Assembly (NCBI GenBank): GCA_026988575.1
Contig: JALSKZ010000057.1
Location: forward strand, 1-45,639
Direction of reading: 5' to 3'
Length of the DNA: 45,639 nucleotides
From: Thermodesulfobacteriales bacterium
Lineage (GTDB): Bacteria > Desulfobacterota > Thermodesulfobacteria > Thermodesulfobacteriales > Thermodesulfatatoraceae
The translations under genes and the position numbers were made by a program. Position 1 is the stretch's first letter; each line of letters starts with the position of its first letter. Below are positions 12,054-18,895 of the stretch, piece after piece. The notes under the pieces are model-generated. The model saw only the letters and a program-made list of their open reading frames with translations, was not told the DNA's origin and ran no database searches.

Positions 12054-13409
12054 TTAATAAGTGGTTACCGTCTTAGGGAAGACGATTTCCGTTTTAGATG
12101 TGTTTTCGACTTTTTCCGGGCCCTTTCGGGCGTACTTTACCAATAGGTAAATGTCTACCACTCCCAAAAGGGTGTAGAGGATGACAAAGGCGGGCAGGGA
12201 GAACCCTACCTGAAGAGTAGATATCGGAGACACCCCTTGAGAGGTTTTCATAAGGCCATAGACGAGCCAGGGTTGACGGCCTACTTCCGCCACGATCCAG
12301 CCTGCTTCGTGGGCTAGATAAGGCAGGGGGATACACCAAGGTAAGATGCGCAGGAGGAGTCGTTCCTTTTCAATGTTTTGCCTGCGTAAGAAGGCCCAAA
12401 GGCTTAATAAAATGAATAGGGTACCCAGGCCCACCATGAGGCGGAAGGACCAGAAGGTAAGAGATACTGGTGGTCTTTCGTCTTTAGGCCACTCCTTTAG
12501 GCCTTTGATCTCGGCATTAAAAGAATGATGGGCCAGAAAACTCATTAACCCGGGGATGGGAAAGAGGGCGATTTTGTTTCGTTCGTGCTGGTCATCAGGT
12601 ACCAAAAAAAGATACATAGGGGCCCCTTTTTCGGTATGCCAGAGGGCCTCCATGGCCGCCAGTTTGGTCGGCTGTTTTTCTGCTACCTCTGCCCCATGGA
12701 AGTGACCTTCAAAGAGGAGAAGCAGGGAGAAGATTAACGTGAAGATAGAGGCCACCTGGAAGCTCTTTTTGAAGAAGACCACCTCGTTTTTGCGCAGGAG
12801 GTGCCAGGCACAAATGCCTAAGACGAAAAAACCCCCAAGGACAAAGGCGCCAAAGACGGTGTGGAAGAATTCAAGCCAGCCAAAACTATTGGTTACAACC
12901 TGGAAAAAGCTGGTCATTTCTGCCCGACCATTACGGATGGTGTAGCCTACAGGGTGCTGCATCCAGCCGTTGGCCAACAAGATCCACAGGGCAGATATGT
13001 TAGACCCAAGAGCCACCAGCCAAATACAGGCCGCATGCATTTTAGGGGACAATCTATTCCAGCCAAATACCCAAACGGCAATAAAGGTAGACTCGAGGAA
13101 AAAGGCTAAAGTGGCTTCTATAGCCAGCAAGGAACCAAAGATATCCCCTACGTATTCGGAATAGCGTGACCAATTGGTACCAAATTGGAACTCAAGGGTT
13201 ATGCCGGTTACTACACCTAGGGCAAAATTTATCAGAAATAGTTTCCCCCAAAACTTGGCGGCTCGTTTGTAGTCTTCGTCTTTGGTTTTGACGTAAAGGG
13301 TTTCGTAAATAGCCGTGAGTAGGGAGAGCCCCAAGGTTAAGGGAACAAATATAAAATGAAACATTGTGGCCACAGCAAACTGAAGCCTCGATAATAAAAC
13401 GACATCCAT
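12054..13409 (-). CDS. cydA: Cytochrome bd quinol oxidase subunit I
   Basis: Haem-carrying subunit of cytochrome bd oxidase, about 451 aa from ATG 13409. H18 in TMFHFIFVPLTLG aligns with E. coli His19, a haem ligand; LEFQFGTNWSRYSEYVGDIFG, the H of EFFHTVFGAFVLGGF and the GRQPWLVYG motif are all conserved. The Q-loop region (about residues 245-310) appears of the short type. ATG 13409 lies 6 nt behind AAAGGAGG and is preferred to TTG 13415, which is too close. First gene of the cydAB operon; the 400-bp region upstream probably contains its promoter, but I could not pick one with confidence. Confidence 0.96.
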   Translation of the reverse strand: MDVVLLSRLQFAVATMFHFIFVPLTLGLSLLTAIYETLYVKTKDEDYKRAAKFWGKLFLINFALGVVTGITLEFQFGTNWSRYSEYVGDIFGSLLAIEATLAFFLESTFIAVWVFGWNRLSPKMHAACIWLVALGSNISALWILLANGWMQHPVGYTIRNGRAEMTSFFQVVTNSFGWLEFFHTVFGAFVLGGFFVLGICAWHLLRKNEVVFFKKSFQVASIFTLIFSLLLLFEGHFHGAEVAEKQPTKLAAMEALWHTEKGAPMYLFLVPDDQHERNKIALFPIPGLMSFLAHHSFNAEIKGLKEWPKDERPPVSLTFWSFRLMVGLGTLFILLSLWAFLRRQNIEKERLLLRILPWCIPLPYLAHEAGWIVAEVGRQPWLVYGLMKTSQGVSPISTLQVGFSLPAFVILYTLLGVVDIYLLVKYARKGPEKVENTSKTEIVFPKTVTTY

Positions 13410-13415
13410 ACCCAA

Positions 13416-13824: not shown

Positions 13825-15003
13825 ATGAAGGCTAAAATGTTTGAGCTTGATCTGGAATATCAAAAAAGAGAATTGCGCCGCATTTACGAAGGCGCGCCGT
13901 TTTTGCGTAAGATCCGTTTTGGGCTCCTAGAGAAGGCTTTAGAAGAGGGCAAGATTTTATTTATTGAGGGTGCCGGCCAACCCGCCTTTAGGGTCAAACG
14001 TGATTTTAAAGGACTTTCTGCCGGTACGGTGCTAGCTAAGGATTTTTTCCTCCCTGGTTTTCCCCATATACCCCGTATTTTCTGTCTTAAGACAGGCCTT
14101 GTCCGTTATATGTCTGGGCCTTTTTACGCCGAAGAAAAGATCGAAGGCTATAACGTGCGTTTGGTAAATTTTTTTGGTTCTATTTTGGCCTTTACCCGTC
14201 GAGGATACATATGCCCCTTTGCCACGGATAGATGGCCGGATTTTTTACCTGCTTTACCCACTTTTTTTGCGGAATACCCCGATTACGCCCTTTGTTGTGA
14301 GGTGGCGGGTCCTGAAAACCCCTTTGTTACGGAGTACCCCCCTTATATCAAAGAAGATGTCGCCTTTTTTGTCTTTGATGTAATAGATTTGAAACGCCAG
14401 CGATTTTTACCCCCCGAAGAGAAATATGCCCTTTTGAGACGCTTTGGCTTTCGTACTCCGGAAATTAGCGGTCCTTTTTGGGCTTCAGAGGTGGAGGCCC
14501 TAAAAGAATTGATCCTTAGATACGACCAGGAGGGAAGAGAAGGCTTAGTGTTTAAACCCGTGGGAAAGGGAAGGGTGATTAAATATGTCACTTCGGCCTC
14601 TAATTTGGGCGATTTGCGTGTAGCATTTCCCTTTATTGGAGAACTAGAGGCAAGCTATATTGTGCATCGTTTAGTGCGTCTGGCCTTGGGACGTTGGGAA
14701 CTGGGGCAACCTTTTGACGAATCTTTTTATAAAGACCTTGGGCAGGCCCTGTTTGGAGAGATGAATATCATCCTAGACCGTGTAAAGGCGAAAAAACCCG
14801 TGGAAGAGATTTTTAGGATTAGATTACGCCGAGAAGAGTCTCTAGAAGCTCTTTTAGCACATTTTAGGGCCGCTAGGGTGCGTATTGAGATACACAAGGT
14901 GGAAAAGAAGGGGCGCTACTGGTGTGTAGAATTTGCCAAGATTTATCCCCGCGCAACCAGCTTTTGGGCTAATAAAATAGAAGGTCTTGCCCAAATAGAT
15001 TAA
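13825..15003 (+). CDS. ATP-dependent RNA ligase, Rnl3 family (archaeal Pab1020/MthRnl type)
   Basis: Nucleotidyltransferase that joins or circularises RNA ends through an enzyme-AMP intermediate. Motif I is EEKIEGYNVR with predicted adenylated Lys105. The other motifs follow: E159 (CCEVAGPENP), motif III FFVFDV (181-186), motif IV EGLVFK (239-244) and motif V IKYV with Lys253. The C-terminal 130 residues match the helical dimerisation/tail region known for Pab1020-type ligases (inference from length and order). These ligases are typical of archaea and some thermophilic bacteria; their RNA substrates are not settled. ATG 13825 is used; ATG 13837 behind GAAGG is an alternative. The next gene follows after 42 bases. 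Confidence 0.9.
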   Translation: MKAKMFELDLEYQKRELRRIYEGAPFLRKIRFGLLEKALEEGKILFIEGAGQPAFRVKRDFKGLSAGTVLAKDFFLPGFPHIPRIFCLKTGLVRYMSGPFYAEEKIEGYNVRLVNFFGSILAFTRRGYICPFATDRWPDFLPALPTFFAEYPDYALCCEVAGPENPFVTEYPPYIKEDVAFFVFDVIDLKRQRFLPPEEKYALLRRFGFRTPEISGPFWASEVEALKELILRYDQEGREGLVFKPVGKGRVIKYVTSASNLGDLRVAFPFIGELEASYIVHRLVRLALGRWELGQPFDESFYKDLGQALFGEMNIILDRVKAKKPVEEIFRIRLRREESLEALLAHFRAARVRIEIHKVEKKGRYWCVEFAKIYPRATSFWANKIEGLAQID

Positions 15004-16897: not shown

Positions 16898-17024
16898 AGC
16901 CCTTCATTTTTGGGCGATTTTGTGTTAAAGAGTCACGATAAGTAATCATAAAATTCCCCCGGGTCCAAATTGTTCGCGGCTTGGCTACATAACCCTTCAG
17001 GTCAAGCATAAAAGGAGGATGTCT

Positions 17025-18863
17025 ATGGCGAAATGGAACCCTGAACGCAGATTGCTCGACCACGAGCATACAAAATTTTGGCAGTACACATTAAAGGACG
17101 TCAAAGAGCCCAACCTCATGAAAGAGGTCTTTCCGTATGACGATGTCCCGTTGGTAGATTTTGATCACAAATTTATTGTTCCTAGTCCTGCCAAGGAGTA
17201 CTGGATTACGGATACCACTTTTAGAGACGGTCAACAGGCCAGGCCTCCCTACACCGTTAATCAAATCGTTACCTTATTTGACTATTTGCACAAACTCAGT
17301 GGACCCAAGGGGGTTATTCGCCAGGCTGAATTTTTTCTCTACACAAAAAAAGACCGCGAGGCCGTAGAACGTTGTCTCTCTTTGGGGTATCGCTTCCCTG
17401 AAATAACGGGTTGGATAAGGGCCCGGGCCGAGGACTTAAAACTTGTCAAGGAGATGGGGCTTAGAGAAACAGGTATCCTTACTTCGTGTTCCGATTACCA
17501 TATTTTTTTAAAACTCAAAAAAGACCGGCGTAAGGCCCTGGAAGATTATTTGGCCATAGTTAAGTCTGCCCTTGACATGGGTATTGTCCCTCGTTGCCAC
17601 TTTGAGGACATTACCCGGGCCGATATCTTTGGTTTTGTGGTCCCCTTTGTCATCGAGTTAATGAAGCTTCGGGAAGAATCGGGCATAGATATAAAAATAA
17701 GGCTTTGTGATACCCTTGGCCTTGGGGTGCCTTACCCAGGGGCAGCACTACCTCGTAGTGTGCCCAAACTAGTTAGGGCCATTATTGAAGAAGCAGGAGC
17801 ACCTGGGGAACTTTTAGAATGGCATGGACACAACGATTTTTACAAAGCCGTTATAAACGCTACTACGGCCTGGCTCTACGGTTGTGCAGCGGTAAATTGT
17901 ACCCTCCTTGGCTATGGGGAACGTACAGGCAATACTCCTTTGGAGGCCATGATCTTTGAGTATATTTCCCTAAGAGGCACTCATGACGGTGTAGATACCA
18001 CCATCATCACCGATATTGCTGAGTATTACCGACGTGAGCTAGGCGATAAAATTCCGCCTAATCAGCCCTTGGTGGGGGCAGAGTTTAATGCTACCAAGGC
18101 CGGGATTCATATTGATGGTATCCTCAAAAATGAGGAGATATACAACCCCTTTAACACCCAAAAATTACTCAAACGTCCCATAGGAATAATCATTACCGAT
18201 AAAAGTGGTACAGCAGGTATAGCTTATTGGATCAATACCCACTTTGGTCTAGAGGGGACGCGCAAGGTAGATAAGCGGCATCCAGGAGTGGCTAAGATCT
18301 ATAAACAGATTATCAAACAGTATGAGGCCGGTCGTATTACCCCTATTTCTAACGAAGAGATGATGCTGTTGGTAAGGCGTTATCTGCCAGAACTATTTAT
18401 TTCTGAATTAGACCGCATGAAACAAAAGGCCTCAGAGTTGTTGGTGAGTCTGGTGGAAGAGCTTACAGAAAAGGAAGAGATCCGCTCTATGGATCCCCAA
18501 AAAATCGTGCCTGTGTTGCGCGAGGTGCTAGAAGAACACCCTTATATACAGTTTGTCTATGTGGTTAACGAGGAAGGAAAGAGAATTACCCCGCTGGTGA
18601 CCCATGTAGAGGACAGGGCCCGCTATGAACACCTGCTAAAAGACGAAGATTATTCTGATAGGCCTTGGTTTATTATGCCTTTTAAGACGGGCAGGGTTTA
18701 CGTAACCGATTTTTATACCTCCAAAGTAACGCAGGCCCTGTGTCTTACCGTAGCAGGGCCAATCCGGAATAAGTATGAAGAAATAGTAGGCGTATTGGGT
18801 ATGGATATACGCTTTCAAGACCTGCTTCGTATGGAAGAAGAAGAAAACAACAGTAATTCATAA
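17025..18863 (+). CDS. Re-citrate synthase/isopropylmalate synthase family enzyme with C-terminal Cache-like domain
   Basis: Acyl-CoA-condensing TIM-barrel enzyme (LeuA/homocitrate/Re-citrate synthase superfamily), 612 aa. The barrel opens with ITDTTFRDGQQARPPYT (about 61-77), has GILTSCSDYHIFLK and PRCHFEDITRADIFGF, and the metal-binding WHGHND (His267, His269). I recall near-identical barrels in clostridia and Desulfobacterota annotated variously as isopropylmalate synthase, Re-citrate synthase or histone-lysine methyltransferase; the last is certainly wrong. Residues about 493-603 form a different domain like Cache/PDC sensors: FVYVVNEEGKRI, YSDRPWF, YVTDFYTS, LTVAGPIRN and IVGVLGMDI. There is no membrane segment, so it would be cytosolic. 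ATG 17019 abuts GGAGG; ATG 17025 has a 6-nt spacer and is chosen. Product (citrate or other) unproven. Confidence 0.8.
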   Translation: MAKWNPERRLLDHEHTKFWQYTLKDVKEPNLMKEVFPYDDVPLVDFDHKFIVPSPAKEYWITDTTFRDGQQARPPYTVNQIVTLFDYLHKLSGPKGVIRQAEFFLYTKKDREAVERCLSLGYRFPEITGWIRARAEDLKLVKEMGLRETGILTSCSDYHIFLKLKKDRRKALEDYLAIVKSALDMGIVPRCHFEDITRADIFGFVVPFVIELMKLREESGIDIKIRLCDTLGLGVPYPGAALPRSVPKLVRAIIEEAGAPGELLEWHGHNDFYKAVINATTAWLYGCAAVNCTLLGYGERTGNTPLEAMIFEYISLRGTHDGVDTTIITDIAEYYRRELGDKIPPNQPLVGAEFNATKAGIHIDGILKNEEIYNPFNTQKLLKRPIGIIITDKSGTAGIAYWINTHFGLEGTRKVDKRHPGVAKIYKQIIKQYEAGRITPISNEEMMLLVRRYLPELFISELDRMKQKASELLVSLVEELTEKEEIRSMDPQKIVPVLREVLEEHPYIQFVYVVNEEGKRITPLVTHVEDRARYEHLLKDEDYSDRPWFIMPFKTGRVYVTDFYTSKVTQALCLTVAGPIRNKYEEIVGVLGMDIRFQDLLRMEEEENNSNS

Positions 18864-18870
18864 ACCTTAC

Positions 18871-18895
18871 GAGGGGCTCTATCATAGAGCCCCTC
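18871..18895. terminator. Perfect convergent hairpin terminator
   Basis: GAGGGGCTCTAT (18871-18882) and ATAGAGCCCCTC (18884-18895) form a perfect 12-bp stem around a single central C (in practice a slightly shorter stem with a wider loop). It sits between the convergent genes ending at 18863 and 18903. No strong U-tract is present on either side. Confidence 0.75.

Follow-up and report, generated by a model that had tools for sequence, protein, structure and literature searches.

The window, a stretch of 45,639 nucleotides from a Thermodesulfobacteriales bacterium, carries the open reading frame of interest on the plus strand at positions 17025 to 18863. It encodes a putative Re-citrate synthase of about 612 amino acids, in which an acyl-CoA-condensing barrel of the HMGL type is followed by a C-terminal Cache/PDC domain. 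The longest reading starts at the ATG at 17019 and yields 614 amino acids, and that from the ATG at 17025 yields 612. A Shine-Dalgarno-like AGGAGG, read directly from the sequence at 17013 to 17018 (+), abuts the first of these codons but precedes the second by 6 nt. Because of this spacing we prefer the start at 17025, the one given in the preliminary description; residue numbers are counted from the ATG at 17019. A terminator-like hairpin lies directly 3′ of the stop codon (18871 to 18895, +), and the downstream neighbor is a convergent RNase E/G gene. Given these two features, the gene seems to stand alone and appears monocistronic.

A Pfam search places the HMGL-like (DRE-TIM) catalytic barrel at residues 63 to 335 (17205 to 18023, +; E = 2.7e-32), and conservation and Foldseek agree with this assignment. 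The motifs that had first drawn attention to this half of the protein, DTTFRDGQQ and HGHND, are present at residues 65 to 73 and 269 to 273, respectively. The metal-site residues D70, H269, H271, and N305 are invariant across 136 tailed sequences, and R69 of the active site is likewise kept. Foldseek matches the barrel to homocitrate and isopropylmalate synthases, that is, to the HMGL-type fold and not to that of PF00285, the ordinary citrate synthase. The barrel is followed by a helical region with weak likeness to HCS_D2 (residues 336 to 462; 18024 to 18404, +), a connecting helix seen in the AlphaFold2 model (residues 463 to 483; 18405 to 18467, +), and the Cache/PDC domain (residues 485 to 607; 18471 to 18839, +), which was delimited by HMM searches, AlphaFold2, and Foldseek.

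The fusion of an acyl-CoA-condensing barrel to a Cache tail, proposed from the motifs YSDRPWF, YVTDFYTS, LTVAGPI, and IVGVLGMDI, all of which we located, is borne out by profile and structure searches. PF22673 (MCP-like_PDC_1) matches residues 498 to 602 with 61.6 bits against a cutoff of 27 (E = 1.1e-16), while dCache_1 scores 41 bits, slightly below its cutoff of 45. Among 65 diverse aligned relatives, PF22673 is matched in all 65 (E ≤ 0.001) and dCache_1 in 64. AlphaFold2 models residues 458 to 614 with a pLDDT of 87.7 and a pTM of 0.83, including a long N-terminal helix, as is characteristic of Cache domains. The best solved Foldseek match of the tail is the sensor domain of KinD (E = 2.8e-9), one entry of which is a pyruvate complex; further matches are all receptors, among them PctA and isoleucine- or leucine-bound Tlp3 from Campylobacter. 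An HMM search found LeuA_dimer (PF08502) in none of the 65 relatives, and this result, together with a fold search that returns Cache sensors, rules out the ordinary LeuA regulatory domain as the identity of the tail. A local gene fusion or assembly artifact is also ruled out, as independent genomes hold more than 130 intact relatives with the tail.

No membrane segment was detected in residues 455 to 614, where the maximum 19-residue hydropathy is 0.76, as the preliminary description had anticipated. The usual setting of Cache domains, outside the cytoplasm between membrane helices and with a signaling output domain, is not that of the window protein; this setting is their usual context and no requirement of the fold. 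On the profile matches and the predicted model, we regard the tail as a genuine Cache domain, predicted to be cytosolic. KinD, PctA, and Tlp3 share with it the fold, the PF22673/dCache_1 sequence, and the R, W, F/Y, Y, and D pocket positions. Their Cache domains, however, are extracytoplasmic parts of membrane receptors, whereas that of the window protein would be cytosolic, single, and attached to a metabolic enzyme. In receptors, the N-terminal helix of the Cache domain is a continuation of the membrane helix, and a 2016 survey states that Cache domains had until then been found exclusively in proteins with output signaling domains (PMC4822843). Another genome of the same order (G012; L146:1560-2975, -) encodes a 472-amino-acid MCP signaling protein with a C-terminal Cache domain that is 29% identical to the window tail. 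This protein has no evident membrane segment on reading its sequence; it is likely a second cytosolic Cache setting and possibly a relative of the tail.

The preliminary description had placed the enzyme with either the Re-citrate synthases or the isopropylmalate synthases; genome content and operons support the former assignment and speak against the latter. Rather than a citrate synthase, the protein could in principle be a synthase of isopropylmalate, citramalate, or homocitrate whose regulatory tail is unusual, as it belongs to the same superfamily and its best NCBIfam model is the NifV homocitrate synthase (TIGR02660). We consider this very improbable. The NifV score is 149.8 bits against a cutoff of 462.9, and the LeuA and CimA models also fall far below their cutoffs. 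Moreover, the roles of LeuA, CimA, and NifV already appear to be filled, since the same genome has separate LeuA (L145) and CimA genes, with LeuA_dimer and above the NCBIfam cutoffs, as well as a NifV-like paralog. It also encodes aconitase, NADP-isocitrate dehydrogenase, and LeuB. By contrast, PF00285 was found in none of the 41 genomes of the order, in a search whose control recovered it from 13 of 14 known genomes. Of 296 genomes in the phylum, 117 have only the Re-type enzyme and 136 only PF00285; 30 have both and 13 neither. The two citrate synthases are thus largely mutually exclusive (odds ratio, 0.025), although the Fisher P value of 6e-38 is overstated because the genomes are related and not independent.

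Gene neighborhoods point in the same direction. Aconitase and/or isocitrate dehydrogenase genes lie directly downstream on the same strand in 18 of 84 loci, which come from several phyla, and representatives of these neighbors pass or approach the NCBIfam cutoffs for the two enzymes. Among the neighboring large subunits, some belong to the aconitase/isopropylmalate-dehydratase type, and that of Desulfovibrio matches a “hydratase” model; the partner dehydrogenase in these loci is nevertheless isocitrate dehydrogenase, not LeuB. A Brocadia ortholog, tailless and 61% identical, adjoins succinyl-CoA ligase genes, as does a candidate from Kuenenia that is 55.1% identical to the Clostridium kluyveri enzyme (PMC8027424). 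Thermodesulfatator indicus has a Re-citrate synthase homolog, and labeling suggests that it synthesizes 2-oxoglutarate in the oxidative direction (PMC12743299). The locus of a Thermodesulfatator sp. encodes a tailed protein 80% identical to that of the window.

The computed masses of Syntrophaceae homologs are 70.8 to 72.8 kDa for tailed proteins and about 53 kDa for a tailless one. The Re-citrate synthase of Syntrophus aciditrophicus (SYN_02536) is reportedly a tetramer of tagged subunits of about 72.9 kDa; it is also said to contain roughly one Ca2+ per subunit and to be strict for acetyl-CoA and oxaloacetate. Because this mass fits the tailed Syntrophaceae proteins, the S. aciditrophicus enzyme is probably tailed, and if the reported value is right, one tailed member is already a proven Re-citrate synthase. 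The Re-citrate synthases of C. kluyveri and S. aciditrophicus share with the window protein the HMGL-type barrel, which is unrelated to ordinary citrate synthase, and the same genomic role; the C. kluyveri enzyme, which is about 450 amino acids long, is not known to have a Cache domain. From genome content and operons, the window enzyme is most likely a Re-citrate synthase.

Several observations on gene content stand beside this assignment. One Candidatus Brocadia genome (G327; L110) has an ordinary citrate synthase in addition to its Re-type gene. The only aconitase-family (PF00330) gene found in the window's own genome is an aconitase (L178; G000:C65:4984-6186). No separate LeuC was seen there despite the presence of LeuA and LeuB, which may reflect an assembly gap or a missed gene. 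Near the Re-type gene (84 loci, L032 to L115), aspS is present in 39 loci and hisS in 25; this neighborhood is conserved among relatives and absent beside the window gene.

We assessed the distribution of the gene and its tail in genomes of the order, the phylum, and other bacteria outside the Clostridia. The full-length gene is present in 37 of the 41 genomes of the order, at 65 to 100% identity, and the remaining four, mostly less complete assemblies, are matched by paralogs alone. Within the phylum it occurs in 147 of 296 genomes, and the tail is missing in just three copies (G053, G070, and G271; all three sequences were read), not counting two matches truncated at the ends of contigs (G161 and G275). 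In Nitrospirota, all 26 full-length copies carry the tail, and five other genomes have fragments or an unclear match. Planctomycetota orthologs differ from the window protein in that all of those examined have no Cache domain. Tailed loci were found in Thermodesulfobacteriota, Nitrospirota, Spirochaetota, Elusimicrobiota, Lentisphaerota, Omnitrophota, Fibrobacterota, Margulisiibacteriota, Auribacterota, and Armatimonadota. The fusion is widespread and old, common to bacteria of about ten phyla and not confined to the window's genome, a point that the preliminary description does not make.

The tree of the enzyme core implies at least three changes between tailed and tailless states, compared with a mean of 11.5 in 500 shuffles, none of which was as low. 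Its starred branches force just one such change, so that repeated independent acquisition of the tail is not required; with the root and several branches unsure, the tree does not distinguish gain from loss or fix the number of events. Identities to the window protein correlate between tail and core at 0.87, which indicates that the tail is inherited together with the enzyme. The tailless Planctomycetota orthologs and the three tailless copies in the phylum itself indicate that it is dispensable for the reaction.

To locate the strongest constraint within the tail, we ranked conservation over its 122 positions in 58 representatives. W550, S568, D596, G520, and L574 are invariant and F551, T577, R548, and Y566 nearly so, and W550, F551, S568, D596, R548, and Y566 all fall within the 16 most conserved positions. 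Five of these residues align with pocket positions of PctA. R548, W550, and F551, which form the segment R548-P-W550-F551 (18660 to 18671, +), correspond to R126, W128, and Y129 (PMC10104139). Y566 of Y566-T-S568 (18714 to 18722, +) corresponds to Y144, and D596 (18804 to 18806, +) to D173 (PMC11245519); S568 lies outside the motif positions. In PctA, R126 contacts the ligand carboxyl, Y129 is structural, and D173 is critical in the amino-acid motif (PMC10104139, PMC11245519). R548 also aligns with the arginine of KinD ADRSFF. The window tail thus keeps five of the six positions of the dCache_1AA motif (Y121, R126, W128, Y129, Y144, and D173). The sixth, Y121, is E543 in the window protein and variable in the family, and we accordingly rejected membership in dCache_1AA.

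This pattern bears on what the tail does. It might be a Cache-fold module that has lost sensing and serves in oligomerization or stability. The nonconserved Y121-equivalent position, the tailless orthologs, and a tail with no known ligand would all fit such a role, and PAS and Cache domains are often dimerization domains (PMC8694187). The strongest constraint, however, includes the ligand-pocket positions R548, W550, F551, Y566, and D596, and we judge a purely structural module unlikely. The tail might instead anchor or recruit the enzyme to a partner such as aconitase, rather than sense a small molecule, in keeping with the frequent adjacency of aconitase and isocitrate dehydrogenase genes. 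The conserved residues nonetheless sit at pocket positions, and tailed enzymes also occur without such gene neighbors, as in the window, making recruitment a highly improbable explanation. Constraint on the pocket positions favors a ligand that bears a carboxylate, perhaps together with an amino group. From these alignments, we infer a pocket of the carboxylate/amino-acid type and predict a small carboxylate or an amino acid as the ligand.

We thus think it probable that the protein is a Re-citrate synthase whose cytosolic Cache tail acts as a metabolite-binding allosteric sensor. The enzyme would be the only recognizable citrate synthase of its genome, condensing oxaloacetate and acetyl-CoA to citrate, which would head the oxidative branch to 2-oxoglutarate and on to glutamate. 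A helix connects its barrel to the Cache domain, which would sit where relatives in the leucine pathway have the LeuA allosteric domain. As to the ligand, the direction of its effect, and the route of the signal, we can only infer. The domain would most likely bind a small metabolite, the best guesses being an amino acid, glutamate for instance, or else a 2-oxo acid. The signal may alter enzyme activity by way of the connecting helix or of contacts between subunits, and helix 463-483, which continues the helices of the enzyme itself in the model, is a plausible path for it. The proposal of an allosteric “lid” is unsupported because domain placement is unreliable in the AlphaFold2 monomer model, in which domain orientation is uncertain (pTM, 0.70). 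A broader suggestion, that a cytosolic Cache domain is the direct allosteric domain of a central-carbon enzyme and gives feedback on citrate synthesis in a large share of anaerobic bacteria, with an amino acid, perhaps glutamate, as a possible effector, is plausible and falls a little short of probable.

Comparable architectures exist in the same superfamily. LeuA and CimA follow the same plan, an acyl-CoA-condensing barrel and then a C-terminal regulatory domain, but their LeuA_dimer domain (PF08502) is unrelated in fold. Sulfolobus homocitrate synthase likewise combines the barrel with a C-terminal RAM domain, to judge by the title of entry 6ktq (dRAM), and the RAM fold is unrelated to Cache. 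Both the kind of enzyme and the kind of domain are known. In the open-license literature, we found no paper on a fusion of Cache with a citrate synthase or HMGL barrel or on a cytosolic Cache domain, and none on the regulation of Re-citrate synthase; the fusion would show in domain databases.

In many strict anaerobes, glutamate synthesis is fed by Re-citrate synthase, and the fusion suggests that entry into the citric acid cycle is controlled in an undescribed way. Should the tail be an effector domain, the role of Cache domains would extend to the direct regulation of intracellular enzymes, and the isopropylmalate/homocitrate synthase superfamily would have a further, unrelated C-terminal regulator beside LeuA_dimer and RAM. 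In that case, the tail could also serve as a marker for Re-citrate synthase genes, which automated annotation often labels homocitrate or isopropylmalate synthases (PMC12016533).

Elsewhere in the window, a gene at 13825 to 15003 (+) encodes an archaeal-type (Pab1020-like) RNA ligase with a Lig_C domain, beside a prenyltransferase-fold protein. A gene at 12054 to 13415 (-) encodes cytochrome bd oxidase subunit I, although the order is largely anaerobic.
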